From positions 62,001-126,000 of the forward strand of contig NZ_FVZL01000007.1 of NCBI RefSeq assembly GCF_900168295.1: a stretch of DNA of 64,000 nucleotides. Direction: 5' to 3'. Shown here in pieces: positions 32,956 through 64,000 of the stretch. The translations under genes were made by a program, and so were the position numbers. Below the pieces are notes generated by a model, which searched no databases, had not been told where the DNA came from, and saw nothing but the letters and a program-made list of their open reading frames with translations. The DNA is from Arthrobacter sp. P2b. GTDB taxonomy: Bacteria; Actinomycetota; Actinomycetes; Actinomycetales; Micrococcaceae. Numbering within the stretch: the stretch's first letter is position 1; each line of letters begins with the position of its first letter.

Positions 32956-32960
32956 GCTGG

Positions 32961-38170: not shown

Positions 38171-38493
38171 CCCTCCACCGTAATGAAACCTCTAGATCTT
38201 CTCCACCGCCAGGTTCCGGTACGCAGCCCGGAGCGGAGCCATCTGCCGGAGGCGCGCCCTGCCCCGCCGCGGCGAAGAACAGTATGGCAAGGCCAGGCTC
38301 CGCGAGCGGCAGGAAATCCCAACTGCTCCGGATGCCGTCCAGAAATTCCTCCGGGCAAGCTCAGCCAGATTTTGAATCGTTACATTAGCTGGACGGGGGA
38401 CCACTGTGTGGCGCACACTGATGGATGGAAAGCGCTTGCTGGACCTCGCAGGCGCCAGACTTTTGGTGCCCCCACCGGGCAGAATGGAGAACC
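38171..38493. other. 323-bp regulatory gap upstream of Gfo/Idh gene
   Basis: Divergent gap between pip and a Gfo/Idh gene. It contains a rhamnose-class LacI site (listed). The stretch nearest pip has open frames on the minus strand with fair codon bias but no start or recognisable protein. Confidence 0.55.
38372..38386 (+). promoter_or_regulatory. LacI-type operator TTGAATCGTTACATT
   Basis: Matches the rhamnose operator TTGAATCGTTTCATT (34583-34597) at 14 of 15 bases. It lies 108 bp upstream of the Gfo/Idh oxidoreductase ATG, so that gene may belong to the same regulon. Confidence 0.6.
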
Positions 38494-45205: not shown

Positions 45206-45281
45206 GGGAGCCTCCTTGCTCGATGTGTGCAATCCCTGATCTCATCTACAACGTGAGTAGTGAGCTGGCTTACACGGCTTC

Positions 45282-45328
45282 TGAAACGATACAATATCCG
45301 CATTCCCCGATTTGGGCAAGCGTTTTCC
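45282..45328. promoter_or_regulatory. Two LacI-type operators between ABC importer and GH42 genes
   Basis: TGAAACGATACA (45282-45293) resembles the rhamnose-class site read on the other strand. GGCAAGCGTTTTCC (45315-45328) is a palindrome of form GGnAAnCGnTTnCC, which on the minus strand reads GGAAAACGCTTGCC and resembles the GAAAACGCTTTC sites at 50850 and 53205. The pair serves both divergent genes. Confidence 0.6.
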
Positions 45329-45381
45329 AAAGTTCCGATTTCTTATCCAGGTTTCACCCTCCCAGCAGACAAAGGAGTCCC

Positions 45382-49389: not shown

Positions 49390-50748
49390 CTAGCTGCTGA
49401 TGGCTGACTTCATCTCGTCGTGCGCCTTCTTGCCGGCTTCCTCCGTGGACAGCCGCTCGAAGAGCACCTCGGAGGTGTAGCGCTTGATGATCTCCTGGAT
49501 GGAACCGGCGCCCTTCGGCGGCGGAGCCGGAGCCTCGCCAAGCTCGTCCTTGATCTGGTCGATGAACTTGACCACCTTGACGTCTGCCGGGGTCAGCTTG
49601 GATTCGATGGCTGCCCGGACCTCGGAGTTCGGGTAGACGCCACGGTCAGCAAGGAGCGTTTCGCCGGCCTTGACGTTGTTGGCCAGGAAGTTGATGAACT
49701 TGGCAGTTTCCTCAGGGTGCTTGGTGCGCGAGGAGGCTGACCAGAACTGCGAGGCCTTGTACCAAAGCCCGGCGTCAGCGGAGGACCCTGTCTTGGTGGG
49801 GAACCGCAGGATCTTCAGGTCGCTGCCGGAAGCCTTTTCCAGCGCAGGAGCCTGGTTGGACCACCAGAACGCCATGCCGTTCTTACCGGTGGCGAGGCCA
49901 CTCTGGTCCAGCGGGGCAGCCTCGGCTTCAACAACCTCGGATGCCGTGGGAACTGCCTTGTTCTCGCTGAGCTGCTTCAGGAAAGCCCACCATTCGGCGA
50001 TGTCACTGGGCTCGAAACCCAGCTTGCCGTCGGACGTGTATAGGGACCTGCCGTTCTGGCGGAGCCAAACGCCCAGTGAAGCCTCATCGGTTCCGTAGGC
50101 GGCGGCACCGTAAGTGCCCTTGGGGGACTTTTCCGTGATTTCGGAGGCGATCCGCTCGAAGTCATCCCAGGTCCACTTGGAGTCATCCGGCAGCGGGACG
50201 CCGGCTGCCTCGAAGACGGCCGGGTTGGCCAGGATGGTAGCGGCGTTGATGCCAGCGGCGATGCCGGTCAGCCCGTCCTCGCTCTTGCCTGCATTCAGCG
50301 CGGCTTCATCGAGCTTGGACGTGTCGATCTCGTACTTGGACAGGTCCAACAGGGCGCCGCGGCTTGAGTATTCGGTGATGTACTTTTCGTCCATCTGGAT
50401 GATGTCCGGGGCGTCGTTGGCGGCAACCTGGGTGGCGAGCTTGTCCCAGTAACCGCTCCAGTCGCCGAACTCCGGCTTGATCTTGATGTTGGGGTTCTCG
50501 GCCTCGAACTGCTTGATGGCCTCCTGGGTCAGCTGGGCGCGTTTGTCGCCGCCCCACCAGGAGAACCGCAGTTCCACAGTGCCGTCGGCGTTTTGCGGGG
50601 CGGCTCCCCCGCCGCAGGCACTAAGGGCCATAACGACGGCGGCTGCAGCGGCAACCACGCCTGTCTTACGGATGCGGCGGGCGGCGCCACGGGATGGAGT
50701 CTCTGCCGATTGCTTTGCAGCAGACGCAGAACGGGGGAAAAGCGGCAC
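49390..50748 (-). CDS. Extracellular solute-binding lipoprotein (sugar ABC)
   Basis: A 452-residue family 1 solute-binding protein with signal VVAAAAAVVMALSACGGG (lipobox LSAC at about residue 45). The mature part has ELRFSWWGGDKRAQLTQEAI and WWSNQAPALEKASG. GTG start with GGAG upstream. It has its own promoter region with a LacI site, separated from the two permease genes on the same strand by a terminator at 50941. It may share those permeases with the binding protein at 53268. Confidence 0.92.
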   Translation of the reverse strand: MPLFPRSASAAKQSAETPSRGAARRIRKTGVVAAAAAVVMALSACGGGAAPQNADGTVELRFSWWGGDKRAQLTQEAIKQFEAENPNIKIKPEFGDWSGYWDKLATQVAANDAPDIIQMDEKYITEYSSRGALLDLSKYEIDTSKLDEAALNAGKSEDGLTGIAAGINAATILANPAVFEAAGVPLPDDSKWTWDDFERIASEITEKSPKGTYGAAAYGTDEASLGVWLRQNGRSLYTSDGKLGFEPSDIAEWWAFLKQLSENKAVPTASEVVEAEAAPLDQSGLATGKNGMAFWWSNQAPALEKASGSDLKILRFPTKTGSSADAGLWYKASQFWSASSRTKHPEETAKFINFLANNVKAGETLLADRGVYPNSEVRAAIESKLTPADVKVVKFIDQIKDELGEAPAPPPKGAGSIQEIIKRYTSEVLFERLSTEEAGKKAHDEMKSAISS

Positions 50749-51039: not shown

Positions 51040-51984
51040 TTACTTGATGCCGGTGGTGGCGATGCCCTTGATGAGGAACCGCTGGCCAAAGAGGAAGACC
51101 AGGAAGACCGGCAGCAGGGACACGATGGACATCGCGAACAGCGATCCCCAGCTGGTGGCGGACTGCGAGTCCACAAAGGCGCGCAGTGCCACGGGGACGG
51201 TGAACATGTCCGGGTCCGTCAGGTAGATCAGGGCCCCGAAGAAGTCGTTCCAGGTCCAGATGAAGGTGAAGATGGTGGTGGTGGCCAGGGCCGGGACCAT
51301 CAGCGGGAGGATGACCCGCAGGAAGATGCGGGGGTGGCCGGCGCCGTCGATTCGGGCCGCTTCATCCAGTTCGCGCGGGATGCCGCGGATGAACTGGACC
51401 ATCAGGAAGACGAAGAACGCTTCGGTGGCCAGCAGTTTGGGCACGATCAGCGGCCAGAAGGTGTTCACCCAGCCGATCTGCGAGAACAGGATGTACTGCG
51501 GAACGATGACCACGTGGAACGGCAGCATGATGGTCAGCAGCATGATGCCGAAGAACAGCTTCTTGCCGGTGAACTGCAGCCGGGCGAAAGCATAGGCGGC
51601 CATGGAGCAGGAGATCAGGTTGCCCAGGATCGAGCCGATCACCACGATGGCGGAGTTGATCATGTAGTGCCCGAACGGGTGGGTCAGGGCGGACCAGCCG
51701 TCCGTGTAGTTGCTCATCTCCAGGCTGTCGAGCCAGAGCCCGGGTTCGCGGAAGATCAGTTCGTTTGCCCGCAGCGAGGAGACGATCATCCACAGCAGCG
51801 GGTAGATCATCAGGCCGCCGGCAAGGATCAGGATGGCGTGCTTCGTCAGTGCTTTACCGCGCTGGGCCCTGCTGAAGGCGAGGGTGCCGCGGGACTCGCG
51901 GACCTTGGGCTTGCGGTGGTTCGTAGGCTTGCCCGGCCCTGACTTCTTGTCCGGGGTGGGCAGCGTCTCCAGCTTAGTCGTCAT
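51040..51984 (-). CDS. Carbohydrate ABC transporter permease (MalG type)
   Basis: A 314-residue permease, six helices, EAA loop LDEAARIDGAGHPRIFLRVI. The ATG at 51984 overlaps the upstream permease by 11 bp. A Lys/Pro-rich stretch precedes helix 1. It is about two-thirds identical by eye to the permease at 42001 in the EAA region. No ATPase nearby. Confidence 0.93.
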   Translation of the reverse strand: MTTKLETLPTPDKKSGPGKPTNHRKPKVRESRGTLAFSRAQRGKALTKHAILILAGGLMIYPLLWMIVSSLRANELIFREPGLWLDSLEMSNYTDGWSALTHPFGHYMINSAIVVIGSILGNLISCSMAAYAFARLQFTGKKLFFGIMLLTIMLPFHVVIVPQYILFSQIGWVNTFWPLIVPKLLATEAFFVFLMVQFIRGIPRELDEAARIDGAGHPRIFLRVILPLMVPALATTTIFTFIWTWNDFFGALIYLTDPDMFTVPVALRAFVDSQSATSWGSLFAMSIVSLLPVFLVFLFGQRFLIKGIATTGIK

Positions 51985-52918
51985 AGAAAACCCAATACTT
52001 AGAAGCGATGAAGTTGATGGCGGTGAAGACACCGATGATGACCAGCAGGAACCACGCCATGGCGGAGGCGTAGCCCATGTCGAACTGGCCGAACCCCTTT
52101 TGGTAGAGGTACAGGGTGAAGAACATCGTGGAGTCGGACGGACCGCCGTTGCCGCCGGAGACGATGAACGCCTGGGTGAACGACTGGAACGAACCGATGA
52201 TCTGCAGCACCAGGTTGAAGAAGAGGATGGGACTCAGCATCGGCATGGTGATCCGCCAGAACTGCTGCAGCGTGGTGGCGCCGTCAACCTTTGCGGCCTC
52301 GTAGTACATCACCGGAATCTGCCGCAGGCCGGCCAGGAAGATGATCATGGGGGCGCCGAAGGTCCACACGTGGAGCAGGATGATCGATCCGAGCGCGGTG
52401 CTGGGATCGGAGATCCAGCCCGGGCCCTGGATGCCGAACATCGCCAGGACCTGGTTGACCAGGCCGGTGGTGCCGAAGATCTGCTTCCACAGGATGGCAA
52501 CGGCCACCGAACCACCCAGCAGGGACGGCAAGTAAAACACGGAGCGGTAGAACGGCAGTCCGCGCAGGCCTTTATCCAGGACCAGGGCGATCAGCAGTGC
52601 CACGGCCAGCTGCAGCGGAACGCCGACCAGGACGTAGGTGAACGTTACGCCGAGCGAGTTGTGCAGCCGGGCATCGGTCAGCATGCGGGTGAAGTTGTCC
52701 AGGCCCACCCATTCCGGGGGCTGGAGCAGGTTGTAGTCCGTGAAGGACAGGTACAGGGACATGATCATGGGCCCGATGGTGATGGCCACAAGGCCCACCA
52801 GCCACGGCAGAAGGAAGATATAGGCGGCCTTGTTATCCCGGCCGTTCGCCTTCTTTTCCTCGGCGGAGAGTTTGCCCTTGCGGCGGGAAATCGAGCTGAG
52901 CTCGCTGATGGCGCTCAC
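51974..52918 (-). CDS. Carbohydrate ABC transporter permease (MalF type)
   Basis: A 314-residue permease, six helices (first AAYIFLLPWLVGLVAITIGP), EAA loop YYEAAKVDGATTLQQFWRI. GTG start at 52918. It diverges from the solute-binding protein gene at 53268 across a 349-bp control region with two LacI sites. It is unusual that no binding-protein gene precedes it on its own strand; see findings. Confidence 0.92.
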   Translation of the reverse strand: MSAISELSSISRRKGKLSAEEKKANGRDNKAAYIFLLPWLVGLVAITIGPMIMSLYLSFTDYNLLQPPEWVGLDNFTRMLTDARLHNSLGVTFTYVLVGVPLQLAVALLIALVLDKGLRGLPFYRSVFYLPSLLGGSVAVAILWKQIFGTTGLVNQVLAMFGIQGPGWISDPSTALGSIILLHVWTFGAPMIIFLAGLRQIPVMYYEAAKVDGATTLQQFWRITMPMLSPILFFNLVLQIIGSFQSFTQAFIVSGGNGGPSDSTMFFTLYLYQKGFGQFDMGYASAMAWFLLVIIGVFTAINFIASKYWVFYDD

Positions 52919-53267
52919 CGCAGTTGCCCCGTCCCGTTCAGGCCCGCTGCTGCCGGCGCATGCGCCGGGCGCGGTGTCCTGGGTATGTGTTTTGCGGCCA
53001 TGTTGTCTCCTTTGGTCATCGTGGCCTCCACGTTCTTGGTTATCGCCGGGGCGATGTGTTCGAGCACCTTGCGGCTCCGGGGTCCCGCCGCAACAGCGTC
53101 AGGAGTGCGTGGTCCGGATGCCGCCGGTGGTGTTGGTCAAAAAGCGGCTCCGTACCAAAGTAAACGGTTTCTTGACTCCTGTATAGCCCTTTGTTAGTTT
53201 TTGAGAAAACGCTTTCTTGTTACGCGCATCACCCAACACTAGATCACACAACCTGAGGGGCAGGACA
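52919..53267. other. 349-bp divergent control region
   Basis: Between permease and binding-protein genes. It contains the two LacI operators listed next (53160-53216) near the binding-protein side. The permease-side half (52919-53140) shows no small gene and no other clear signal. Confidence 0.6.
53160..53216 (+). promoter_or_regulatory. Tandem LacI-type operators
   Basis: GTAAACGGTTTC (53160-53171) and GAAAACGCTTTC (53205-53216) are palindromes with central CG, 45 bp apart centre to centre, about four helical turns, allowing looping. The second is identical to the site at 50850. They lie 52-108 bp before the ATG of the binding-protein gene and can also affect the divergent permeases. Confidence 0.7.
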
Positions 53268-54563
53268 ATGCGGTTTCGTCTCAAAAAGTCAGTAATGGGG
53301 GTGGCCGGCGCAACAGCGGCGATGGCCCTGGTTCTCACCGGATGCGGCAGCAGCCCGGAGACCGGAAAGGTGGGGACTGTCGAAGATCCTGTCACCATCC
53401 GGTTTGCCTGGTGGGGCAACGATTCCCGCGCCAAAACCACCCTGGAGGTCATTAAGGACTTCGAGGCCGCGAACCCCACCATCAAGGTCCAGGGCGAAAA
53501 CACCGAGTTCAGCTCCTACTGGGACAAGATGGCCACCCAGATCGCCGGCGGCACCACACCGGATGTTTTCGCCATGAGCGGCGCCTACCCCAGCGAATAT
53601 GCCACCCGCGGCGTCCTGCTGGACCTGGACAAGGTCAAGGACCAGATCGACACCTCCAAGTTTGCCGAAGGGACGGTGGACCTCGGCAAAATCGACGGGA
53701 AGCAGTACACCATCACGGCCGGCGTTAACGCCATGTCCATGGTGATCGACCCGAAAGTCTTCGAGGCTGCCGGAGTGGAGCTGCCCGACGACGAGACCTG
53801 GACCTGGGACGACTACGCGGACATCGCCGCCGAGATTACCCGGAAGTCTCCTGCGGGAACATTCGGAACCACCCCGATGACCAACGACTCGTTCCTCGCG
53901 GTGTGGGCACGCCAGCACGGCGAGGACCTCTACACGGATGACGGCAAGAAGCTGGGCATCAGCGAGGACACCGCCACAAAGTGGTTCGAGATGAACAAGA
54001 AGCTGATGGATACCGGCGGCGCACCCTCGGCCTCCCAGACTGTCGAGGACAACTCAGCCCAGCCGGAGCTGACGCTGATGGGCCAGGGCAAGCAGGGCAT
54101 GAAGATCTCCTGGAGCAACCAGATGAACTCCTACTCGGGTTCACCCCTGGTCATGATGAAACTGCCGAACGAGAGCAAGCAGCCCGGCACCTGGCTGCGC
54201 TCCTCCATGGAATACGCCATCTCCTCCAAGTCGGCACACCCCAAGGAAGCAGCCATGTTCATCAACTACCTGGTGAACAACGAGGACGCGGCCACCAAGA
54301 TCAAGAGCGACCGCGGCATGCCCGCCAACACCGATCTTAAGGCCGCCATCACACCCCTGCTGAAGGAATCCCAGCAGAAGGAAGCGGAATACCTGGACCG
54401 CGTCGCTGAGATGAAGATCGAACCGCCGCTGCCCTTCCCCGCCGGATCGTCAGCCACCATGGAGGTCATCAACCGGCTCACCACGGATGTCCTGTTTGGA
54501 AAGACATCACCGCGGGACGCCGCCAAGAGCTTCATCCAAGAGGTCAACTCGAACCTGGGCTGA
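53268..54563 (+). CDS. Extracellular solute-binding lipoprotein heading an oxidoreductase operon
   Basis: A 431-residue family 1 solute-binding protein with signal KSVMGVAGATAAMALVLTGC (lipobox LTGC). The mature part includes TIRFAWWGNDSRAKTTLEVI. ATG at 53268 is preceded by GAGGGGCAGG. It opens an operon with an esterase, a Gfo/Idh-DUF6807 fusion and an M24-like protein. The divergent permeases are likely its partners. Confidence 0.92.
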   Translation: MRFRLKKSVMGVAGATAAMALVLTGCGSSPETGKVGTVEDPVTIRFAWWGNDSRAKTTLEVIKDFEAANPTIKVQGENTEFSSYWDKMATQIAGGTTPDVFAMSGAYPSEYATRGVLLDLDKVKDQIDTSKFAEGTVDLGKIDGKQYTITAGVNAMSMVIDPKVFEAAGVELPDDETWTWDDYADIAAEITRKSPAGTFGTTPMTNDSFLAVWARQHGEDLYTDDGKKLGISEDTATKWFEMNKKLMDTGGAPSASQTVEDNSAQPELTLMGQGKQGMKISWSNQMNSYSGSPLVMMKLPNESKQPGTWLRSSMEYAISSKSAHPKEAAMFINYLVNNEDAATKIKSDRGMPANTDLKAAITPLLKESQQKEAEYLDRVAEMKIEPPLPFPAGSSATMEVINRLTTDVLFGKTSPRDAAKSFIQEVNSNLG

Positions 54564-54650
54564 TCCCCGTACAGCAGATCAGAGCAGGCAGGCAGCAGCC
54601 GGACGCCCAACAAGCAGCTTCAACCAATCACAACCAGAGGAGGCAGGACA

Positions 54651-55799
54651 GTGAGTGCCGATACGCGCCCTGCACGCCCCAGTGCCATTGCCGGTTACGA
54701 GGACTGGCCTGCCTACGTCCGCCAACACCCGCGTTACCGTGCCGCCACCGCCGCGGCCCAGGAACTCTCGGACGCGCTGGGCGTGCCCGCTGTGTCCCGC
54801 CTTCAGGAGGTGACGGTCCAGTGGGAAGAAACGTACGACGGCGTCACCACCTCCCAGCTCAGCTGGCAGTTGGGCTTTGGGCCGGCAACCACCGGCTGGC
54901 TGGTCAGGCCTGCGGACTCCGCGGGCCCGCTGCCCGGAGTCCTCGCGCTGCACTGCCACGGCGGGAACAAGTTTGGCGGTGCGGACCGGCTGGTGGAGCT
55001 TCCAACGAACCATCCCTCTGCCGAGGCCGCCCGCGCCGGCCATTATGACGGACACGCCCTCGCCACCGAGACTGCCCGCAGGGGCTTTGCCGTCCTGGCC
55101 CATGACAGCTTCGCCTGGGGCAGCCGCCGCTTCGACCTCTCCACTCCCCCATGGCGGACCGCGTCCGCGCTGGAGGCGCGGCGGGCGCAGTGGCGGGAGG
55201 ACGGCGTCGTGCCTTCCGAGGCGGACGACTACAACGCCTCGGCCGCGTTCCACGAAGACACTGTTGCCAAAACAGCCGGGCTTCTAGGCACCAGCCTGGC
55301 CGGTATGGTGGCCCACGACGACCTCGCCGCGCTGGACATCCTGGCCGGACTGCCAGGAGTGGACGCAGACCGCCTGGGCTGCGTCGGCTTCTCTGGCGGC
55401 GGGGGCCGGTCGCTTGCCCTGGCCGTACTCAGCCCACGGATCCGGGCGTCGGTGGTGACGTGCATGATGACCACGTTCCAGTCGCTCCTGCCCGCGTACC
55501 TGGACGCCCACTCCTGGCTGCTCCAAACGCCCGGGCTGTGGAAACTGGGCGATTGGCCTGAACTGACTGCCCGGTCAGATGCCGGCTTCCTGGTGCAATA
55601 CGCGCTGGCCGATGAGCTGTTCCCGGAGGACGGGATGCGGCAGGCCCACCGGGTGCTGGAAACGCTGCACCGCGACGGGAAGTACATCGGAGCCTTCTGG
55701 CCCGGCGGCCACGTCTTCACTACGGCAATGCAGGAAGAAGCCATCGATTTCCTGGCCGGCGCCCTGCACCTCAAGACTCCATTCACTACAGCCCTTTAG
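54651..55799 (+). CDS. Alpha/beta hydrolase (acetyl esterase/dienelactone hydrolase-like)
   Basis: A 382-residue hydrolase. ALHCHGGNKFGGADRL gives the oxyanion region, CVGFSGGGGRSLAL the nucleophile Ser, a long insert with HDSFAWGSRRFDLS precedes it, and YALADELFPEDGMRQAH and FWPGGHVFT supply the Asp and His. It resembles AXE/Abhydrolase-7 type esterases found in sugar operons. It probably removes ester groups from an imported saccharide; substrate unproven. GTG start after AGGAGG. It is 17 bp before the Gfo/Idh fusion gene. Confidence 0.85.
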   Translation: MSADTRPARPSAIAGYEDWPAYVRQHPRYRAATAAAQELSDALGVPAVSRLQEVTVQWEETYDGVTTSQLSWQLGFGPATTGWLVRPADSAGPLPGVLALHCHGGNKFGGADRLVELPTNHPSAEAARAGHYDGHALATETARRGFAVLAHDSFAWGSRRFDLSTPPWRTASALEARRAQWREDGVVPSEADDYNASAAFHEDTVAKTAGLLGTSLAGMVAHDDLAALDILAGLPGVDADRLGCVGFSGGGGRSLALAVLSPRIRASVVTCMMTTFQSLLPAYLDAHSWLLQTPGLWKLGDWPELTARSDAGFLVQYALADELFPEDGMRQAHRVLETLHRDGKYIGAFWPGGHVFTTAMQEEAIDFLAGALHLKTPFTTAL

Positions 55800-55815
55800 C
55801 CTCAAGGACCCTTTG

Positions 55816-57891
55816 ATGACTCAGCAATCCGCCACCGCGGAACACGGCAGCAGCCCCCGCCACGCCGCGCCTTTACCGGCCGCCGTGCCGCGTATCGCCC
55901 TGGTGGGCGTCCACGGCTTCGGCGAACGGCACCTGGCCAACCTCGCCCGGCTGGAGGAGGCCGGCGCCGTCGAACTGGTCGCCGTCGCTGACCCCAACCC
56001 TCCGGAGCCGGGCAAACTCGCGGAATCTGTTGCCGTCTTCCCCGACCTGGACGGGCTGCTCGCAGCCCAGCCGGGAGCCGACGTCGTCATCCTTGCCACC
56101 CCTATCCAGACGCACGCGCCGCTGGCCGTCGCAGCCCTCCGGGCAGGCATGGACGTCTACGTTGAAAAGCCCCCGGTAGCGTCGCTGGCCCAGTTCAACG
56201 AGGTCCTGGCAGCCGCCGAGGCAGCAGGCAAACTGGTCCAGGTAGGCTTCCAAAGCCTGGGGTCCCACGCCCTGCCCGCCATCCGGGACCTCGTTGAGTC
56301 AGGCGGCATCGGGGATGTCCTGGGCCTGAGCGCCAAGGGCCAGTGGGCGCGGAACAAGGCATACTTCAAACGCTCGCGCTGGGCCGGGAAGCGCAGCCTG
56401 GACGGCATCGACGTTGTGGACGGCGTGGCCACCAACGCGCTGGCGCACGCAGTCGCCACGGCCCTGCACATGGCCGGGGCACACACGCTTGCGGACGTCG
56501 CATCGGTGGACACGGACCTTTACCGCGCAAACGAAACCGAGAGTGACGACACCTCGGCGATCCGGGTCCGCACCGCCCACGGCACCACCCTTCTCTGCGG
56601 CCTGACCCTCTGTGCTCCGGAACAGCTGGATCCCTCGGTCACCGTGCACGGCACCCGGGGCGAGATCACCCTGTTCTACACAAAGGACGAGGTGGTCATC
56701 ACCACCCCGGACGGCGAGCGCCGGGAAAGCTTCGGTCGGACGGACCTGCTCGAAAACCTCCTGGAGGCCCGCGCCACGGGTGCTCCACTTCTGTGCTCGC
56801 TGCCGGACACCGGCGCCTTCACCACGGTGATGGAAGCCATCCGCACCGCCCCGGCGCCGCAGGCCATCGGTCCGGACCACATCAGCTGGGAGGGCGACAG
56901 TGACGACGCCCATCCCGTGGTCCTCGGCATCGCAAACCTGATTGACCGCGCTGCCAAGGCGCAGGCAACCTTCGCCGAACTTGGCGTCCCATGGGCACGC
57001 GCCCTTCCGCCGGTCCGCTCGCTGACCGTGGACGGGCGTGCGGTGGCGGATTACCAGGACGGCAGCCGCATCCGTGCCGTTTCCTCGCCGCGGCCCTACC
57101 TGCACCCCGTCCGCACGCTGGCCGGCACCGTGGTGACCAACCACCAGCCGTTTGACCATGTGTGGCACCTGGGCGCGGGCGTGGCGCTGCAGGACGTGGA
57201 CGGCATCAACTTCTGGGGCGGCAGGACTTATACGCGCGAAGCCGGGCAGTACGTCTGGCGGCGCGACCACGGCAGCATCTCCGTCACCGAAACTGTCCTG
57301 GAGCAGACCGCCGCCGTGTCCGGCGGCTCCGCCGGCAGGCTGCAGGAGACGCTCAGCTGGAACGGACCCGACGGCAAGCCCGTCCTCGCGGAAGACCGGT
57401 CCTGGCGCTGGCAGGGCATCACCCCAAGGGTGTGGGCCCTGTCCCTCGAGTTCACCCTCTCCCCCGCCGGCACCAACCCGGTCAGCCTGGGCAGCCCCGG
57501 CTCCAACGGCCGCCATGAGGGTGGCTACGGCGGCTTCTTCTGGCGGCTGCCGGAGTGCCGCAGCGCTGCTGTTTGGACCCCCGTGGGCACCGGCGAATCG
57601 GGAGTGCACGGCAGCGTGGCGCGCTGGCTCGCCTGGTCTGGAAAGTTCGGCCCGGGAACGGCCGACGGCGAGGCCACCCTGGTTTTCGTTGCTTCCGACG
57701 GCTCCACGGACCCCTGGTTCGTCCGCTTGGAAGGGTATCCCGGCGTGGGCCAGTCGCTCGCCTGGGACACTCCCGTCATCGCCGAACCCGGCAACCCGGT
57801 CCGGCGCAAAATTTTCGTCTTGATTGCCGACGGCATCCTGAACACCACCGACATCGAAGCTTTGATCAACCAACAGGGGGACCTCTCATGA
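55816..57891 (+). CDS. Gfo/Idh/MocA oxidoreductase fused to a DUF6807 (PmoA-like) domain
   Basis: A 691-residue fusion. Residues 1-390 are a Gfo/Idh oxidoreductase (RIALVGVHGFGERHLANLAR, VILATPIQTHAPL, EKPPVASLAQFN), paralogous to 38494. Residues about 405-690 match DUF6807: LHPVRTLAGTVVTNHQPFDH, WGGRTYTREAGQYVWRRDHG, and DPWFVRLEGYPGVGQSLAWD. DUF6807 is often found near Gfo/Idh genes in sugar operons. The two parts suggest a two-step or product-channelled reaction. ATG at 55816; its end overlaps the next start as ATGA. Confidence 0.87.
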   Translation: MTQQSATAEHGSSPRHAAPLPAAVPRIALVGVHGFGERHLANLARLEEAGAVELVAVADPNPPEPGKLAESVAVFPDLDGLLAAQPGADVVILATPIQTHAPLAVAALRAGMDVYVEKPPVASLAQFNEVLAAAEAAGKLVQVGFQSLGSHALPAIRDLVESGGIGDVLGLSAKGQWARNKAYFKRSRWAGKRSLDGIDVVDGVATNALAHAVATALHMAGAHTLADVASVDTDLYRANETESDDTSAIRVRTAHGTTLLCGLTLCAPEQLDPSVTVHGTRGEITLFYTKDEVVITTPDGERRESFGRTDLLENLLEARATGAPLLCSLPDTGAFTTVMEAIRTAPAPQAIGPDHISWEGDSDDAHPVVLGIANLIDRAAKAQATFAELGVPWARALPPVRSLTVDGRAVADYQDGSRIRAVSSPRPYLHPVRTLAGTVVTNHQPFDHVWHLGAGVALQDVDGINFWGGRTYTREAGQYVWRRDHGSISVTETVLEQTAAVSGGSAGRLQETLSWNGPDGKPVLAEDRSWRWQGITPRVWALSLEFTLSPAGTNPVSLGSPGSNGRHEGGYGGFFWRLPECRSAAVWTPVGTGESGVHGSVARWLAWSGKFGPGTADGEATLVFVASDGSTDPWFVRLEGYPGVGQSLAWDTPVIAEPGNPVRRKIFVLIADGILNTTDIEALINQQGDLS

Positions 57892-59006
57892 CCCAGACAA
57901 CAGCCGCCGCTCCGCCGGCCCTCCGCGTATCACCGGCATCAGCGGCGGACCGGGAGGTCAAGCGCCGCCGGGTCCTGGGCATCCTTGACGCCGCCGGCCG
58001 GGACTCGCTGCTCCTGACAACGCACACGGCACTGACCTGGTACCTGGACGGCAGCCGGGTCCACATCAGCCTGGCGGGCGATCCCATCGCCGCGGTGCTG
58101 GTGGACCGCGACGGCGACCACCTGGTGACCTTCAACAACGAAGCCGGGCGTATCGCCGCCGAGGAGCTCCCGGCCGGGGTCTCCCTGCACACCGTTCCCT
58201 GGTACGGAAACCTGCACGAGGCTGCCGCCGCCGTCGGCTCTTCCCCTGCCGGAGCCCAGGATCCGCTGGTGGAAGCGGACGTCGCGTCCGAGCTGCGCGC
58301 CGCCCGCCAGCAGCTGCTTCCCGCCGAAAGCGCCCGCTACGCCTTCCTCAGCGCCGAACTGGCGGCCATCATGACCGATGTGCTGTCCACCGCACGGCCG
58401 GACACCACGGAATTTGAGCTGGTGTCCGCCCTGGCGGAACGGGTGGTGGCGGCAGGAGCGGAACCGCTGGTCCTGCTGTGCAACGGCAGTTCCCGCAGCA
58501 CGTTCCGCCACCCGCTGGCCACCCATTCCCCCCTTGGCCGCCGCGCGATGGCCGTGGTCTGCGCGCGCCGGGACGGCCTGGTTGCCAACATCACCCGCTG
58601 GGTGCGGTTCGACGCCGGCACCCTGGAGGAGCGGGACGCGGAGTCCCGGATCGCCGCAGTGGAGGCGGACATCTTCGACGCCACGGTCCCGGGCGCGCGG
58701 CTGGACCGTATTTTCGCCGAAATTCAGGCATCGTACGTACGTCACGGCTTCGGCGCCGACCAGTGGGAACAGCACCACCAGGGCGGCCCCGCCGGTTATG
58801 CGGGCCGGGACCCCAGGGTCACCTCCGCGGTGGCGGACACGGTGGTCCTGGGCCAGACCTTCACCTGGAACCCCTCCGGTCCCGGAGTCAAGATCGAGGA
58901 CACCGTGCAGCTCACGGAGTCCGGCCTGCAGGTCCTCACGGTGGACCCCCGCTGGCCGGTGGCCATCGTGAACGGACTGCAGCGCCCCGTCACGCTGCAG
59001 TTGTAA
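57888..59006 (+). CDS. M24-like (creatinase fold) protein lacking metal ligands
   Basis: A 372-residue protein with the creatinase N-terminal domain (LLLTTHTALTWYLDGSRVHI) and a pita-bread C-terminal domain (FELVSALAERVVAAG, EQHHQGGPAGYAGRDPRV, VLGQTFTWNPSGPGVKIEDT). The two aspartates and two glutamates that bind metal in M24 peptidases are not seen: the positions read ARRDGLVANITRW and TWNPSGPG. It is probably not a metallopeptidase; a sugar-related hydrolase or lyase role as in creatinase is possible. ATGA overlap with the previous gene. Confidence 0.8.
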   Translation: MTQTTAAAPPALRVSPASAADREVKRRRVLGILDAAGRDSLLLTTHTALTWYLDGSRVHISLAGDPIAAVLVDRDGDHLVTFNNEAGRIAAEELPAGVSLHTVPWYGNLHEAAAAVGSSPAGAQDPLVEADVASELRAARQQLLPAESARYAFLSAELAAIMTDVLSTARPDTTEFELVSALAERVVAAGAEPLVLLCNGSSRSTFRHPLATHSPLGRRAMAVVCARRDGLVANITRWVRFDAGTLEERDAESRIAAVEADIFDATVPGARLDRIFAEIQASYVRHGFGADQWEQHHQGGPAGYAGRDPRVTSAVADTVVLGQTFTWNPSGPGVKIEDTVQLTESGLQVLTVDPRWPVAIVNGLQRPVTLQL

Positions 59007-59324
59007 ACCTCTCTCACGTGATGCCGGTTTCTCCCCGATCCTCTCTCACTAGTCGCTCCGGCCGGGGCGGCACGTGAGGGGGCGTCGGGCTGGACGTACG
59101 ACGGCGTCACGTCTGGCAGCCTTTTGGCCCACCACAGGCGCCGCTCCCCCGCCAAACCGGGCCGCCGTCGTTGTGCGCTTGCCAAAAGCCGGCGCTGCGT
59201 GACGCCCGCCGGCCGAGCAGCACTCCGGACGTCCTGCCGCTTACACTGAAACGCTCTATCACTCTCCTAAAGAAAGTGATAGAGCGTTTGAGTTTAAGCG
59301 GCGTTGAGTGCGAGAGCGTTACAG
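59007..59324. other. 318-bp convergent intergenic region
   Basis: Ends of the M24-like gene and aldehyde dehydrogenase gene face each other. A direct repeat CCTCTCTCAC occurs near 59008 and 59040, and CACGTGA words at 59015 and 59070. The strong inverted repeat at 59236-59302 is listed separately. No gene seen. Confidence 0.6.
59236..59302. terminator. Very long inverted repeat, probable bidirectional terminator
   Basis: Arms of about 28 nt (59236-59263 and 59275-59302) match with only two mismatches around an 11-nt loop; core AACGCTCTATCACT. It lies 23 bp beyond the stop of the aldehyde dehydrogenase gene on the minus strand. The length is unusual for a terminator and it may be a repeat element. 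Confidence 0.7.
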
Positions 59325-60776
59325 CTACGGCAGCACGAGTTCACCGTCCACGCGGCGCGGGATGCGCAGCGGGTTGGCCTCGTGCAGCGCCGGGTGCAGC
59401 ACCGTTTCCGGGGCGTCCTGGTAGGCGACCGGCCGCTGGAACCTGCGCACCGCCGTCGCGCCCACCGAGGTAAAGAGGGACGTGGTGGCCGGGTACGGGC
59501 CGCCGTGCTGCTGGGCCCAGTTGACGGCGACGCCGGTTGGCCAGCCGTCGAACAGGACCCGGCCGGCCAGCCCGGACAGCTGCTCCACGAGCGCTGTGAT
59601 GTCCTCGCCGGACTGGGCGTGGAGGGTGGCTGTCAGGCTGCCCGGCACCTTGGCCAGCACGGCCGACAGTTCGGCCTGGTCCGTGTATTCGATCAGCATG
59701 GTGGTGGGTCCGAAGCACTCTTCGAGCAGTTGCTCCGGGTTCTCCAGCACCTTCGCAGCGGAGGTCGAGAAGACCACCGGCGCTGCACCGTTGGCTGCGG
59801 CGTCCTGGTCCACGCTGCCGCTGACCACGTCCACCCCGGGCACCGACGCAAAGCTGCGGAGCCCATCCGGGTATGCCTCGGCGATCCTGCTGGTGAGCAT
59901 ACCGACGGCGGGCTTGTCCTTGCTGGCCTCCGCCACTTCCGCGGCAAAGGAGGTTCCTGCCGGAATGAAGACCAAACCCGGCTTGGTGCAGAACTGCCCC
60001 GCACCAAGCGTGAACGAGCCTGCCAGGCCCGCCGCGAGCTGGCCGCTGCGTTCCGCCAGTGCTGCAGCGGTGATGACCACTGGATTGAGGCTGCCCAGTT
60101 CCCCGTAGAACGGAATGGGATCGGGGCGGGAGGTTGCGAGGTCGAACAAGGCACGGCCGCCGGGGATGGATCCAGTGAACCCCACGGCCTTGATGGCCGG
60201 GTCCTGGACCAGGGCGGTGCCCACCTCACGGCCGCTGACCAGCGCAAACAGGCCTTCCGGCGCTCCTGCGGCGCCGAGGGCATCAGCCACGATTTCCGCT
60301 GTCCGCTCGGACAGGCGCAGGTGGCCGGAGTGGGCCTTGACGATGACCGAGCAGCCCACGGCCAGGGCAGAGGCGGTGTCACCTCCGGCCACCGAGAAGG
60401 CGAACGGGAAGTTGGAGGCGGAAAAGACTGCCACCGGACCGATGGGCCGCAGGATGCGGCGGAGGTCGGGCTTGGGCGGGGTGGAGGCCGGGTCCGCGTG
60501 ATCGATGATGGCCTCGAGGTAGGAGCCTTCGGTGATCACGCGGGCGAAGAGTCGCAGCTGGCCGGAGGTCCGGGCCACCTCGCCGGTCAGCCGCGGGGCG
60601 CCAAGGCTGGTCTCCGAATCCGCAATGTCCACCAGTTCGGCAGCGTTGGCATCCAGCGCGTCAGCTACTGCCGTGAGCCAGGCAGCGCGTTCGGCATCCG
60701 GTGCGGCGGCGGAAATCGTGGCTGCCTGGGTGGCGGCGGCAGTGAGTTCGGACAGGGAAAGCGTTGCAGTTGTCAC
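59325..60776 (-). CDS. 2-oxoglutarate semialdehyde dehydrogenase (2,5-dioxovalerate dehydrogenase) type ALDH
   Basis: A 483-residue NAD(P)-dependent aldehyde dehydrogenase. The cofactor/active region includes FSASNFPFAFSVAGGDTASA, FTGSIPGGRALFDLA, Glu in FYGELGSLNPVV and Cys in GAGQFCTKPGL. Replacement of the usual EKP-type motifs and the ASNFPFAFS phrase are typical of 2,5-dioxovalerate dehydrogenases that finish the oxidative pentose and hexuronate pathways. It is last in a four-gene unit with the dehydratase genes, 26 bp after the enolase-type gene. Confidence 0.9.
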   Translation of the reverse strand: MTTATLSLSELTAAATQAATISAAAPDAERAAWLTAVADALDANAAELVDIADSETSLGAPRLTGEVARTSGQLRLFARVITEGSYLEAIIDHADPASTPPKPDLRRILRPIGPVAVFSASNFPFAFSVAGGDTASALAVGCSVIVKAHSGHLRLSERTAEIVADALGAAGAPEGLFALVSGREVGTALVQDPAIKAVGFTGSIPGGRALFDLATSRPDPIPFYGELGSLNPVVITAAALAERSGQLAAGLAGSFTLGAGQFCTKPGLVFIPAGTSFAAEVAEASKDKPAVGMLTSRIAEAYPDGLRSFASVPGVDVVSGSVDQDAAANGAAPVVFSTSAAKVLENPEQLLEECFGPTTMLIEYTDQAELSAVLAKVPGSLTATLHAQSGEDITALVEQLSGLAGRVLFDGWPTGVAVNWAQQHGGPYPATTSLFTSVGATAVRRFQRPVAYQDAPETVLHPALHEANPLRIPRRVDGELVLP

Positions 60777-60802: not shown

Positions 60803-61906
60803 TTAAAGTTCGTCCCGGAACCGGAAGCCGAGGCCCGGCTGGCCGGCCAGGGTTGCCCGGCTGTCGCTGAACCGCACGGGAGAGGGCCCGTCCAGGATGC
60901 CGAGCTGTTCGAAGGATGCTTCTTCCACGTCCTCCACGAGTGTGGGCTCCGCCAGGGTGAGCGCCAGCTGCCCGGAAAGTTCCGGCAGCAGGTGGGGCAT
61001 CACCCGGATGCTGTTGGTCCGCGCCAGCTCGACAATCCGCCGGAACGGGGTAATCCCGCCCACCCGGATGATGTTGGGCTGGATGATGTCCACCGCCTCG
61101 GCGTCGATGAAATCGCGGAAGCGGTAGATGGTGTGCAGGTTTTCGCCGAGCGCGATGGGCACAGGTGAATGCTTGCGGAGCCTGCGGTATGCCCACAGGT
61201 CGTCGGCGCGGATGGGTTCCTCCAGCCACTCCAGCCCGAAGCCGGACAGGACATCCAGGGCGCGGAGGGTGGTAGGGAGGTCCCAACGCTGGTTGGCGTC
61301 AATCATCAGCTTCCGGTCGGGCCCCAGAACGGAGCGGACCGCGGCCACCCGTTCAGCGTCCTCCCGGATATCGGGCTTGCCCACCTTGATCTTTACCGCC
61401 TGGTGCCCGGCCGCAACCCACCGCTCAACCTGGGCAACGAGCTCTTCAAGGGTGTAGTGCAGGTTCACCCCGGACCCGTACACCTCCGCCGATTCCTGCC
61501 GCTGGCCCAGGAGCCCGGCCACGGATGTCTGGGAACGGCGGGCCTGCAGGTCCCACAGGGCAAGGTCGACGCCGGCCATGGCGATGGTGGTCAGTCCCCC
61601 GCCGCCGGCCTCGTGCAGGCGCTTCCACAGCGCGTCCCAGACCGTCTCCGGATTGGCAGGCAGCCCGGTGACAAACGGGGCGATGTCGTAGTCCAGCAGC
61701 GCCTTGACGGCCTGCGGGCCGATGGTGGGCGTCCATGAAAAACCGTGCCCCGCGCCGCCGTCGTCCGTGCGGATTTCGGTGACGATCACGTGGTTCTCGG
61801 GTGCCTCGACGCCCCAGCTTCTGCGCAGCGGGACGGTGATGAGCCGGGAGGTCAGGCCAGTGATGCGGGGAACGGTGCGGACGGCTACGGCCGCCGGGGC
61901 GCTCAT
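60803..61906 (-). CDS. Enolase-superfamily aldarate dehydratase (MR/MLE family)
   Basis: A 367-residue protein of the mandelate racemase subgroup. The KxK motif is AVKIKVGKPD, metal ligands are in MIDANQRWDL, WLEEPI and LGENLH, and the catalytic His is in VMPHLLPELSG. Genes for uronate oxidation and 5-dehydro-4-deoxyglucarate dehydratase flank it, so it probably dehydrates galactarate or glucarate. The exact aldarate cannot be told from sequence alone. Its ATG overlaps the upstream stop as TGATG. Confidence 0.87.
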   Translation of the reverse strand: MSAPAAVAVRTVPRITGLTSRLITVPLRRSWGVEAPENHVIVTEIRTDDGGAGHGFSWTPTIGPQAVKALLDYDIAPFVTGLPANPETVWDALWKRLHEAGGGGLTTIAMAGVDLALWDLQARRSQTSVAGLLGQRQESAEVYGSGVNLHYTLEELVAQVERWVAAGHQAVKIKVGKPDIREDAERVAAVRSVLGPDRKLMIDANQRWDLPTTLRALDVLSGFGLEWLEEPIRADDLWAYRRLRKHSPVPIALGENLHTIYRFRDFIDAEAVDIIQPNIIRVGGITPFRRIVELARTNSIRVMPHLLPELSGQLALTLAEPTLVEDVEEASFEQLGILDGPSPVRFSDSRATLAGQPGLGFRFRDEL

Positions 61907-62811
61907 CAGCGGCCGGCCAGCTCGTAGCCCTTGGCGAGGATGGACTTCAGCTGCACCAGCTGCTCCTCGGTGGGGTCCACCAGCGGCGGGCGCACGGAGC
62001 CTACCGGCAGCCTGCCCAGGCGCAGGCCGGCCTTGATCAGCGAAACGCCGAAGCCCGGGGTCTGGTCGCGGAGGCGGACCAGGGGCGCGTAGAAGCCTTC
62101 GAGCAGGGCGTTGCGGCGCTCCTCGTCGCCGGCCATGTAGGCGTCGTAGTAGGCCTTGGCGATCTCCGGGGCCATGGCGAAGGCGGCCGAGGAGTAGAGC
62201 GGGATGCCGAGGCCGCGGTAGGCGCCCTGCGTCAGTTCCGCGGTGAGCAGTCCGTTGAAGAAGGCGAAGTCCTCCCGGCCGGTGGCCTTGACGGCGGACA
62301 CAATCTCCTGGGCAAGGCCCACGTCCCCTAGCCCGTCCTTGAAGCCGACCACCTTCGGGTTGGCCGCCAGGCGGGCCATGGAAGCGGCCGTGAACTTGGC
62401 GTTGCCGCGGTGGTAGACGATCACCGGCAGGCTGCTGGCGGCAGCGACTGCTTCGATGTAGGCCACCAGTCCGTCCGTGGGTCCGGTGACCAGGTACGGC
62501 GGCAGGACCAGGAGGGCGTCCGCGCCGGCTTCTTCCGCGGCGCGGGCGGCTGCAAGGGCGTGGCCAAGCGGACCACCGGCGCCGGCTACTACCGGGACTT
62601 TTCCTGCCACAACCTCGACGGCGGCAGTCACCACGGTGCGGACCTCCTCGATGCTGAGGGCGTGGAATTCACCGGTTCCGCAGGCGGGGAACACACCGCC
62701 GGGCCCGAACGGGAGCCGGGAGCTGATGTGTTCCTTCAGCAGCTCTACGTCAACGGCACCTTCGGCCGTGAACGGAGTGACGGGAAAGAACAGTACGCCG
62801 TCGAATTTCAT
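61906..62811 (-). CDS. 5-dehydro-4-deoxyglucarate dehydratase
   Basis: A 301-residue DapA-superfamily enzyme converting 5-dehydro-4-deoxy-D-glucarate to 2,5-dioxopentanoate, CO2 and water. The opening KFDGVLFFPVTPFTAEGAVD, GGVFPACGTGEFHALSIEE, the Tyr in VIVYHRGNAKF and the Schiff-base Lys in VVGFKDGLGDV are specific for this family (kdgD type). ATGA overlap with the upstream SDR gene and TGATG with the downstream gene show tight coupling. Confidence 0.95.
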   Translation of the reverse strand: MKFDGVLFFPVTPFTAEGAVDVELLKEHISSRLPFGPGGVFPACGTGEFHALSIEEVRTVVTAAVEVVAGKVPVVAGAGGPLGHALAAARAAEEAGADALLVLPPYLVTGPTDGLVAYIEAVAAASSLPVIVYHRGNAKFTAASMARLAANPKVVGFKDGLGDVGLAQEIVSAVKATGREDFAFFNGLLTAELTQGAYRGLGIPLYSSAAFAMAPEIAKAYYDAYMAGDEERRNALLEGFYAPLVRLRDQTPGFGVSLIKAGLRLGRLPVGSVRPPLVDPTEEQLVQLKSILAKGYELAGR

Positions 62812-63773
62812 GATGTCTCCTTGGTTCCGCTGCCGGCACTGACCAGCGCGGAGGTCTCGTCGTTGAGGGTGGGATGGGACTTGAGTTCCGTGCGCCAGCT
62901 GCGCGTGGGCTGCCAGCCCAGGAGTTCCTGGGCTTTGGCGATGGAGAAGGCGGGGCTGGTGCCGGTCAGCCCGGCACTGAGGGCTTCACTTCCGGGCAGG
63001 AACCTGGGCATCAGTTCGGCGAGGGGCGCCGTGGCGAGGGCGTCGGCCGCGCCCACGAAGAAGGTTTCCCCGTTGGGAATGGAGTCCATCTTCTGCAGCA
63101 GCAGGTCCAGGAAATCCGCCACGTCCCGGGCATCCACGTAGTTGAACAAGGCCGGGGCGGATAGCGCCGGATCGGCCAGCCGCTCGGCAAGGGTGTGGCC
63201 CTGCTGCGTCGGTGCGCCGTCCCACTCCTCCGGTGAGATCACGTAGCAGGGGCGGAAGGCGGCGTAGCGGATCTTCTCCCCCTGCGCGGCAGCGAACATC
63301 TGCACGGTCTGCTCGGCGATGAGCTTGGACAGAGCGTAGGCATTCCACGGCCGCGGCGTGGTCCGCTCGTCAAGCGGGAACGCCGCCGGCAACCAGCCGG
63401 CGGGCGAACCGTAGCCGAGGACCGTGGGGCTGCTGGCCGTCACGATCTTCGGCACTCCCAGTTCCGTCGCGGCGCTGACCACGGCGAAGGCGAGCCGGGT
63501 GTTGGTGGCGAAGATGACGTCCTCGGGCGCGCTGAACGGAACCGCGATCGCCGCAAGGTGGATGACGGCGTCGGGCCTGGTCTCGCGGAGGAGCCGCAGT
63601 GCCTCCCCCGGGGCAAGGAGGTCTGCCGTTTCCTGCACGACGCCGGCCGGCAGCTGATCGGCCGGCACGGCGTCCCGGTCCACCGAGATGACGTGGTGGC
63701 CGGCTTCTGCAAGCCCCGCCACCACACTGCGTCCCAGCCGGCCGGAGCCACCGGTGACGAAAATCCTGCTCAT
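62808..63773 (-). CDS. NAD-dependent SDR, probable uronate dehydrogenase
   Basis: A 321-residue extended SDR. The cofactor site is RIFVTGGSGRLGRSVVAGLA, and the catalytic pair is Tyr-x-x-x-Lys in YALSKLIAE, with Ser/Thr upstream in TASSPTVLGYG. Uronate dehydrogenases share this fold and the operon partners. It would oxidise galacturonate or glucuronate to the lactone. Other epimerase-like roles cannot be excluded. AAAGGAACC precedes the ATG at 63773. Confidence 0.8.
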   Translation of the reverse strand: MSRIFVTGGSGRLGRSVVAGLAEAGHHVISVDRDAVPADQLPAGVVQETADLLAPGEALRLLRETRPDAVIHLAAIAVPFSAPEDVIFATNTRLAFAVVSAATELGVPKIVTASSPTVLGYGSPAGWLPAAFPLDERTTPRPWNAYALSKLIAEQTVQMFAAAQGEKIRYAAFRPCYVISPEEWDGAPTQQGHTLAERLADPALSAPALFNYVDARDVADFLDLLLQKMDSIPNGETFFVGAADALATAPLAELMPRFLPGSEALSAGLTGTSPAFSIAKAQELLGWQPTRSWRTELKSHPTLNDETSALVSAGSGTKETS

Positions 63774-63803: not shown

Positions 63804-64000
63804 CTAGGCGCCGCGTCGAAGGTCGACGCCGAGGTCCAGGTCCTCGATGCGGACGGGCAGGGACGATTCAAGCGAGCGGTTCCCGGCGATGCCCACGGAG
63901 ACGGAGCGCAGTCCGTCCAGGTAACCGGACGGACGGCCCAGGGGGTCTTCACCCGGCCCGTTGAAGAGGTCCGAGAGGAGGAGCTCGTCCCCGCCGCCGT
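63804..64000 (-). CDS. Gfo/Idh/MocA-type oxidoreductase, C-terminal part
   Basis: The 3' end of a gene entering from the right edge. The last 65 codons include ELLLSDLFNGPGEDPLGRPS, YLDGLRSVSVGIAGNRSLES and PVRIEDLDLG, a typical end of sugar Gfo/Idh oxidoreductases. It ends 30 bp upstream of the SDR gene on the same strand and is likely in its operon. The start lies outside the window. Confidence 0.75.
   Translation of the reverse strand, partial: GGGDELLLSDLFNGPGEDPLGRPSGYLDGLRSVSVGIAGNRSLESSLPVRIEDLDLGVDLRRGA

Follow-up and report, generated by a model that had tools for sequence, protein, structure and literature searches.

We analysed a 64,000-nucleotide stretch of Arthrobacter sp. P2b (contig NZ_FVZL01000007.1, positions 62,001 to 126,000; hereafter the window) containing an apparent operon that encodes a Gfo/Idh/MocA-DUF6807 fusion protein and a metal-less homologue of the M24 (pita-bread) peptidases. 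The operon converges with a gene set that looks like an oxidative uronate pathway. This adjoining pathway, which was absent from an earlier note on the same DNA, is the best clue to function. Our best explanation for the whole, to which we give slightly less than an even chance, is that the operon imports a uronic-acid glycoside and releases the acid into the adjoining pathway. What we describe is the sequence anatomy of the operon and its neighbourhoods in other genomes, and the functions of the fusion and of the M24-like protein are inferred from them. The fusion appears to stand in a uronate setting, and the M24-like family appears to have a sister group in sulfoquinovose use.

The operon and the convergent genes

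The genes of the operon and the convergent set are as follows.

53265–54563, + strand: ATP-binding cassette (ABC) solute-binding protein (SBP_bac_1; PF01547, 101.7 bits); start picked by eye; opens the apparent operon
54651–55799, + strand: AXE1-like alpha/beta-hydrolase, putative esterase (PF05448, 26.9 bits over 48 residues, cut-off 21)
55816–57891, + strand: fusion of Gfo/Idh/MocA (about residues 22–349) and DUF6807 (403–684), 691 amino acids; from profile matches and fold
57888–59006, + strand: metal-less M24 (pita-bread) homologue, 372 residues (PF00557, 27.3 bits, cut-off 23)
59249–59289, no strand: 15-bp perfect hairpin, probable two-way terminator; read in the sequence (−31.2 kcal/mol for 61 bases folded)
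59325–60776, − strand: aldehyde dehydrogenase, probable 2-ketoglutarate semialdehyde dehydrogenase (PF00171, 134.1 bits; role from neighbours)
60803–61906, − strand: mandelate racemase/enolase-family enzyme, probable aldarate dehydratase or lactone cycloisomerase (PF13378, 206.7 bits)
61906–62811, − strand: 5-dehydro-4-deoxyglucarate dehydratase family, KdgD (NCBIfam PRK03620, 399.8 bits, cut-off 278)
62808–63773, − strand: short-chain dehydrogenase/reductase (SDR)/epimerase-family protein, probable uronate dehydrogenase (PF01370, 108.8 bits; role assigned through the neighbours and without a family model)
63804–64000, − strand: second Gfo/Idh/MocA gene, unfused; its 3′ end lies in the window and the rest beyond the window edge (L248:304-1836)

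The stop codon of the fusion and the start codon of the M24-like gene overlap in an ATGA at 57888–57891; the earlier note had described this direct overlap with correct coordinates and frames. Downstream, four families of the oxidative hexuronate pathway lie side by side (SDR, enolase-family, KdgD and aldehyde dehydrogenase). KdgD is the only one that passes a curated NCBIfam cut-off, at subfamily level; against TIGR03249 it scored 280.8 bits, below the cut-off of 373.95. The best NCBIfam match of the enolase-family enzyme was talarate/galactarate dehydratase with 224.1 bits, below the cut-off of 500, and none of the NCBIfam matches listed for the aldehyde dehydrogenase exceeded its cut-off. 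The oxidative uronate pathway is published, and some of its variants use lactonases (PMC6353982).

Domains and relatives of the fusion

Both parts of the fusion exceeded their profile cut-offs within a single chain, as the earlier note had proposed. PF01408 matched residues 26–145 with 73.7 bits (cut-off 24), and PF14100 matched residues 403–684 with 214.9 bits (cut-off 27), covering profile positions 4–269 of 270. The predicted model reached a local distance difference test value (pLDDT) of 94 and a template modelling score (pTM) of 0.92. When 55 sequences were aligned, E117, K118, P119 and H211 of the Gfo part were kept in all 35 Gfo rows. These residues match the EKP motif and the catalytic histidine that, together with a Rossmann domain, mark Gfo/Idh/MocA proteins. 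In the DUF6807 part, D447, H448, H451, E526, R566, R577 and R637 were identical in 41/41 rows, and 27 columns were invariant across 26 sequences. The invariant DUF6807 residues look like an active site.

The closest solved relative of the Gfo part was WlbA, both by sequence (3q2k, E 9.3e-19) and by fold (3q2k, Z score 33.6 over 310 residues; 3q2i, also WlbA, Z 32.5), followed by the folds of DgpA1 (Z 31.9) and a glucuronide-3-dehydrogenase (8tdi, Z 31.2). WlbA works on a sugar nucleotide that carries a uronic acid, the title of its entry naming UDP-GlcNAcA as ligand. The enzyme presumably acts as a 3-dehydrogenase. WlbA and the glucuronide-3-dehydrogenase P2B11, both among the best matches, have the Gfo/Idh/MocA fold in common with the fusion, and WlbA shares the NxxxH histidine in the alignment. 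In contrast, both lack a DUF6807 part and are 18–23% identical to the fusion. The GH188 structure 8qc8 was a further fold match (Z 29.4); N207 of the fusion falls at Glu189 of the GH188 enzyme SqgA by motif spacing alone (PMC10755693). SqgA resembles the proposed enzyme as a Gfo-type enzyme using nicotinamide adenine dinucleotide (NAD) for the glycoside of a 6-anionic sugar, and it sits in a cluster of the M24-like sister group (L019); however, it has no DUF6807 and is 18% identical in the structural alignment.

A sequence search of the PDB with DUF6807 gave no match (best E 0.52, ribosomal protein L6). Whole-chain fold searches with the fusion model returned Gfo matches only, DUF6807 not having been searched as a separate domain. 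Two published papers still use the names PmoA or methane oxygenase for PF14100.

Neighbourhoods were compared for the best 80 of 545 confirmed M24-like relatives (hereafter the named loci), which come mostly from Arthrobacter, Pseudarthrobacter and Paenarthrobacter. At E<=1e-40 these loci contained, besides the M24-like gene (80/80, by selection), DUF6807 in 74, the second Gfo in 73, the enolase-family gene in 72, SDR and KdgD in 71 each, and the permeases in 66. The fusion was found in 73 of the 80; 69 showed the 4-bp overlap with the M24-like gene and the other four fused pairs did not. Among the seven loci without a fused pair, one begins just before M24 (L092) and two look broken (L100 and L103); the remaining ones are L105, L106, L109 and L111. 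Three loci stem from records titled Vibrio cholerae (L111), Acidobacteria (L090) and Sporosarcina (L096). Their clusters group with actinobacterial ones and have G+C contents of 0.675, 0.611 and 0.674, respectively; mislabelled records, contamination or transfer are possible.

The search for neighbouring separate genes that the earlier note had suggested gave a positive result: outside this group, Gfo and DUF6807 are mostly separate genes lying side by side, often close to uronate genes. A class-wide search detected DUF6807 in 27/148 genomes. In 23 of the 31 DUF6807 loci read, out of 44 places listed, a Gfo gene was adjacent or fused (a single fusion, L131); the other eight had no Gfo in the short stretch examined by BLAST. 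Furthermore, 40 stretches centred on the SDR gene were read from 55 places; of the other 15 places, 11 were excluded (M24 gene already known to be adjacent, or the window itself) and four were not retrieved. DUF6807 occurred in 25 of the 40, with Gfo directly upstream in 23 of these 25, and lay within 600 bp of the SDR gene in 13/40. An M24 gene was absent from 39 of the 40 stretches; over all 55 places it was nearby in at least 12. Conversely, M24 accompanies uronate genes without the fusion at L105, L106 and L109, and at L111 with SDR only, at the end of the locus. It follows from these counts and loci that Gfo-DUF6807 and SDR travel without M24, and that M24 travels with uronate genes without Gfo-DUF6807. 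The interpretation in the earlier note is partly upheld. A sugar-acid setting is supported, but membership of the M24-like protein in one set of three enzymes for a single modified sugar is not, since M24 occurs without the fusion at the loci named and in sulfoquinovose clusters. The esterase that had been counted into the set is a weak call resting on the short AXE1 match listed above.

Breakdown of glycans through 3-keto sugars was reportedly the subject of a Nature paper in 2024. Other published 3-keto sugar routes are described in PMC7676230, PMC10628242, PMC10066097 and PMC10755693, among them the breakdown of levoglucosan by four enzymes (PMC7676230) and the NAD-dependent sulfoquinovosidases of GH188 (PMC10755693). 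With the levoglucosan enzymes LgdA-LgdB1-LgdB2-LgdC and the beta-eliminases OGE/CGE, the route proposed here would share the idea of 3-oxidation, elimination, hydration and reduction. According to these papers, LgdB1/B2 belong to PF01261 and OGE/CGE are TIM barrels; in the operon DUF6807 would fill that place. None of the eight genes scanned in the operon and the convergent set carried PF01261, a search that did not extend to the remainder of the genome.

Because of the conserved residues, the likeness to WlbA, the association with SDR and the published 3-keto routes, our best reading of the fusion is that of a 3-oxidising, uronide-cleaving enzyme. The Gfo part would, somewhat more likely than not, oxidise C3 of the uronide with NAD, as suggested by its conserved residues and by WlbA as the nearest solved relative. 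More tentatively, and as something we regard as possible rather than probable, DUF6807 could then act within the same chain on the 3-keto product, by elimination, by hydration or by both, so that the bond would be cleaved without a classical glycoside hydrolase. We infer this lyase role from the fusion, the adjacency of the genes and the invariant His, Asp and Arg residues. Reduction of the 3-keto sugar back may fall to the second Gfo enzyme, which is encoded beside SDR. In view of the fusion and its uronate context, DUF6807 is a testable candidate for one step in cleaving glycosides without a glycoside hydrolase.

Alternatively, DUF6807 could be non-catalytic and bind or position the substrate, the Gfo part being either just a 3-dehydrogenase or, by itself, a whole NAD-dependent glycosidase. 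The match to 8qc8 fits this view, as do the 15 of 40 SDR-centred stretches that lack DUF6807, several of which contain the second Gfo; according to PMC10755693, GH188 and GH109 do all steps on the Gfo-type fold alone. However, the seven active-site-like residues identical in 41/41 rows speak for catalysis, and we consider a merely positioning DUF6807 rather unlikely.

A further Gfo/Idh gene of the window (38425–39744, + strand), which has no DUF6807, shares about 61% identity with the fusion's Gfo part.

The M24-like protein has probably lost four of five metal ligands

The predicted model of the M24-like protein (pLDDT 92) matched prolidases with Z scores of about 28–32. Metal ligands were located by aligning the protein with the solved Thermotoga maritima and Pyrococcus furiosus enzymes, the family profile with solved prolidases, and the M24-like family with the M24 proteins that this genome encodes, using MAFFT; the family profile matched these own-genome proteins too weakly to place ligands. 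The two metal-binding aspartates correspond to V223 (or C225, if the register is taken from the hairpin in the model) and N234. The first glutamate corresponds to N328, and the last one is retained as E337. The metal-binding histidine falls on G300 in the prolidase alignment or on H297 in the MAFFT alignment with methionine aminopeptidase-like proteins. No alignment placed a carboxylate at either aspartate position or at the first glutamate. Loss of the metal site, claimed in the earlier note, is confirmed in that probably four of the five ligands are gone, or three if H297 counts; H297 would be the case of a shifted ligand that the earlier note had listed as a refutation, yet only two of five ligands would then remain.

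The same picture emerged from 106 family rows, from which matches of fewer than 280 profile positions had been dropped. None had an aspartate at 223 (V/S/A/T), 225 (C/T/V/A) or 234 (N/S/T/A/V), and position 328 was N and position 337 was E in 105 rows, with one gap each. H208, H296, E337 and D338 were retained in at least 105 of the rows. Moreover, 38 positions were identical in at least 97% of the rows, including His, Arg, Gln, Asn, Lys, Glu and Asp residues.

The nearest fold was the Xaa-Pro dipeptidase 5cde (Z 31.7, 2.8 Å, 339 residues). Such M24B enzymes have the same fold and the last metal-binding glutamate in common with the M24-like protein, whereas their other metal ligands are absent from it (G300 or H297 at the histidine). 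The creatinases 7yto, 1kp0 and 1chm followed with Z 31.5, 31.3 and 31.1, which ties them with 5cde, and the ectoine hydrolase EutD/DoeA and the N-terminal domains of Spt16 reached Z 30.4 and up to 28.2, respectively. Together, creatinase (1chm, 1kp0, 7yto) and EutD/DoeA share the pita-bread fold at Z 29.5–31.5, with 13–17% identity to the M24-like protein. A true creatinase encoded in the same genome (L144/L249, E 4.3e-170 to 1chm) was used to assign residue positions. The equivalents of creatinase His232, His324 and Arg335 are kept as H208, H296 and R307, but Glu262, Glu358 and His376 are replaced by T236, N328 and E337. His232, Glu262, Arg335 and Glu358 are functional residues of creatinase, Glu262 and Glu358 binding the guanidinium group. 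Loss of these acids together with retention of the arginine would fit an anionic substrate and is no proof of one. The parallel "as in creatinase" drawn by the earlier note thus holds at the two histidines and the arginine and not at the two glutamates, and the fold comparison leaves creatinase and peptidase level.

Two other functions bear on these findings. Comparable to creatinase and ectoine hydrolase, the M24-like protein could be a metal-free hydrolase of ester, amide or lactone bonds in a derivative of an acid sugar. Both enzymes are near in fold (Z 31.5 and 30.4), the residues H208, H296, E337 and D338 and the three creatinase equivalents are conserved, and lactonases take part in variants of the uronate pathway (PMC6353982). 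On the other hand, Glu262 and Glu358 are replaced, and the sulfoglycolytic Embden-Meyerhof-Parnas (sulfo-EMP) route, in which the sister group is found, produces no lactone as described in PMC8873060. We rate a hydrolase as unlikely, if by no means negligible; a lactonase as the common function of the family was set aside on the latter ground. A pseudoenzyme serving as regulator or binding protein, as Spt16 does, would agree with the lost metal site and with the Spt16 folds, but the 38 nearly invariant positions and the retention of the gene in genomes of 1.3–1.8 Mb make it highly improbable.

Uronate and sulfoquinovose groups of the M24-like family

M24-like matches at E<=0.001 were found in 132/198 genomes of the genus, including a few with fragments or the distant paralogue only, and the class-wide search detected a member in 31/345 genomes (E<=1e-20). 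Of the named loci, 74 contained at least two of SDR, KdgD and the enolase-family gene, two contained one, and four contained none (L055, L056, L082 and L110, of which L056 and L082 run into contig ends). The 20 class-wide M24 loci comprised eight in uronate, six in sulfoquinovose and six in other contexts; one of the last six, L176, turned out to be a sulfoquinovose-type cluster once more flank was read (L234).

Within the genus, five loci (L016–L019 and L028) contain an M24 paralogue in a variant sulfoquinovose cluster. Four of the five paralogues are 27–30% identical to the M24-like protein of the window over the alignment, and the L028 gene is split over two frames. The assignment to sulfoquinovose is based on a GH188 enzyme in L019 (E 6.1e-205 to 8qc2; also 8qc3), on gene families (sugar isomerase, kinase, aldolase, semialdehyde dehydrogenase), and on a gene order shared with the AK04 cluster. 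Two L019 genes were named YihS-type and TauE after similar genes in the AK04 description; NCBIfam yielded D-mannose isomerase (520.5 bits, cut-off 600) for the first and nothing for the second. Small actinobacterial genomes of 1.3–1.8 Mb (family f28) also carry the M24-like gene in sulfoquinovose-type clusters (L174, L178–L181). The best NCBIfam match of the M24 neighbour in L178 was sulfoquinovose isomerase SftI with 270.7 bits, below the cut-off of 700. The sulfoquinovose clusters L177/L232 and L176/L234 contain M24 and no labelled Gfo gene. In L177 an alpha-xylosidase/alpha-glucosidase-type protein, below curated cut-offs, lies beside M24; presumably it belongs to GH31.

The distant M24 members L182 and L184 lie near aldehyde dehydrogenase and transporter genes, with no labelled Gfo. 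At L184 there are also a Zn-dehydrogenase and a protein of the L-arabinonate dehydratase type, and at L182 a member of the DapA family; perhaps these loci serve another sugar-acid pathway.

A tree was calculated from 58 of 112 rows with the same length limit as above; locus number served to thin the rows, and loci retrieved a second time were left out. Uronate rows formed one side of a branch (99/100), sulfoquinovose rows another (93/85, the latter not starred), and four of the five other rows a third (94/94). Groups were assigned from the neighbours, L110 (no labelled uronate gene) and L042 and L111 (one each) being placed in the uronate group.

Strain AK04 grows on sulfoquinovose, including a sulfoquinovose glycoside, and its authors state that no mutarotase gene was identified in Arthrobacter sulfo-EMP clusters (PMC8873060). 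Since a sugar acid, free or freed, is common to the contexts and the published sulfo-EMP clusters miss a mutarotase gene, the M24-like protein may be a mutarotase. It would act metal-free on the freed sugar acid, most plausibly changing the anomer before an anomer-specific enzyme; we put this forward as a weakly supported and doubtful proposal, no more and no less likely than the hydrolase. Aldose-1-epimerase was found in 0/108 loci with M24 and in 4/52 loci without it, other mutarotase families not having been searched. Twenty aldolase-centred stretches read for comparison were a chosen subset of the matches, and several of them hold no sulfoquinovose cluster. Aldose-1-epimerase-type genes were seen in the M24-free uronate clusters L201, L204, L206 and L225, that of L201 belonging to the galactose-1-epimerase subfamily.

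A mutarotase would extend the peptidase fold to carbohydrate chemistry, and the family may fill the step left open in the Arthrobacter sulfoquinovose clusters as published (PMC8873060). The broader proposal has two parts. The M24-like family would be a mutarotase (anomerase) that has the pita-bread fold, needs no metal and acts on sugars whose C6 group is anionic, with a uronate and a sulfoquinovose clade. Its single-chain partner would use DUF6807 to eliminate the aglycone once the Gfo part has oxidised C3. We regard this as improbable in its entirety; if it is true, both families would receive their first functions, as far as the open-access literature shows.

The 4-bp overlap with the fusion in 69/80 named loci could also mean that the M24-like protein handles 3-keto intermediates made by the Gfo enzymes, a role implied by the single-sugar set of the earlier note. 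M24 is found without labelled Gfo in L177/L232, L176/L234, L182 and L184, however, and AK04 grows on the sulfoquinovose glycoside (PMC8873060) with a cluster that has no M24 gene; 3-keto handling therefore seems quite unlikely. Because some M24 clusters hold GH188 (L019) or a glycosidase-type protein of their own (L177), M24 is not simply the glycosidase, and a role as the missing glycosidase was set aside. An obligatory role in sulfoquinovose use was rejected in view of AK04.

Proposed route and its difficulties

Taken together, the operon would import the uronide through the ABC transporter, the fusion would oxidise and cleave it as outlined above, and the M24-like protein might act on the freed uronic acid. 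Uronate dehydrogenase, the enolase-family enzyme, KdgD and the semialdehyde dehydrogenase would then convert it to 2-ketoglutarate, their activities being taken from the published pathway.

Apart from a non-catalytic DUF6807, several observations weigh against this route. The roles of SDR, the enolase-family enzyme and the aldehyde dehydrogenase rest on matches under curated NCBIfam cut-offs. A GH42 enzyme is encoded nearby (see below), and such a classical glycosidase could perform part of the cleavage. In the open-access literature we found no function or activity for any DUF6807 member and no activity for this M24 family. M24 is dispensable in the sulfoquinovose cluster of AK04, which lacks the gene. 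The aldose-1-epimerase comparison is affected in three ways: 48 of the 52 loci without M24 have no aldose-1-epimerase either; the 108 loci with M24 are mostly close kin, L232 and L234 repeating L177 and L176; and two of the 52 (L239 and L241) are contigs of genomes with M24 on another contig.

Other features of the window

Upstream of the operon lie further genes of transport and glycan breakdown.

51040–52032, − strand: ABC permease PERM_a (PF00528, 75.2 bits; in 66/80 named loci at E<=1e-40)
51974–52918, − strand: ABC permease PERM_b (named by eye; in 66/80 named loci at E<=1e-40)
49390–50748, − strand: second solute-binding protein, which probably belongs to the same transporter (named by eye; label SBP2 in 69/80 named loci)
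45223–47397, + strand: GH42 beta-galactosidase, between two transporter blocks (in 32/80 named loci at E<=1e-40)

The hairpin at 59249–59289 stands between the convergent gene sets. It was not listed by the automated terminator scan, whose loop limit was 8. In the region 52800–59500, promoter and terminator scans did not exceed shuffled sequences (0 vs 0.4 and 3 vs 4.3).

The AXE1-like hydrolase of the operon was present in 61/80 named loci (E<=1e-40); its PDB matches, to cephalosporin C deacetylases, were weak. L-rhamnose genes (29396–34127, − strand) lie at a distance of about 19 kb and encode an FGGY kinase, a RhaD-type aldolase/dehydrogenase (1016.7 bits) and RhaI (639.9 bits), and an AXE1 esterase gene (28202–29221) adjoins them. 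The rhamnose genes and the esterase may hint at plant glycans that contain rhamnose together with uronic acid.

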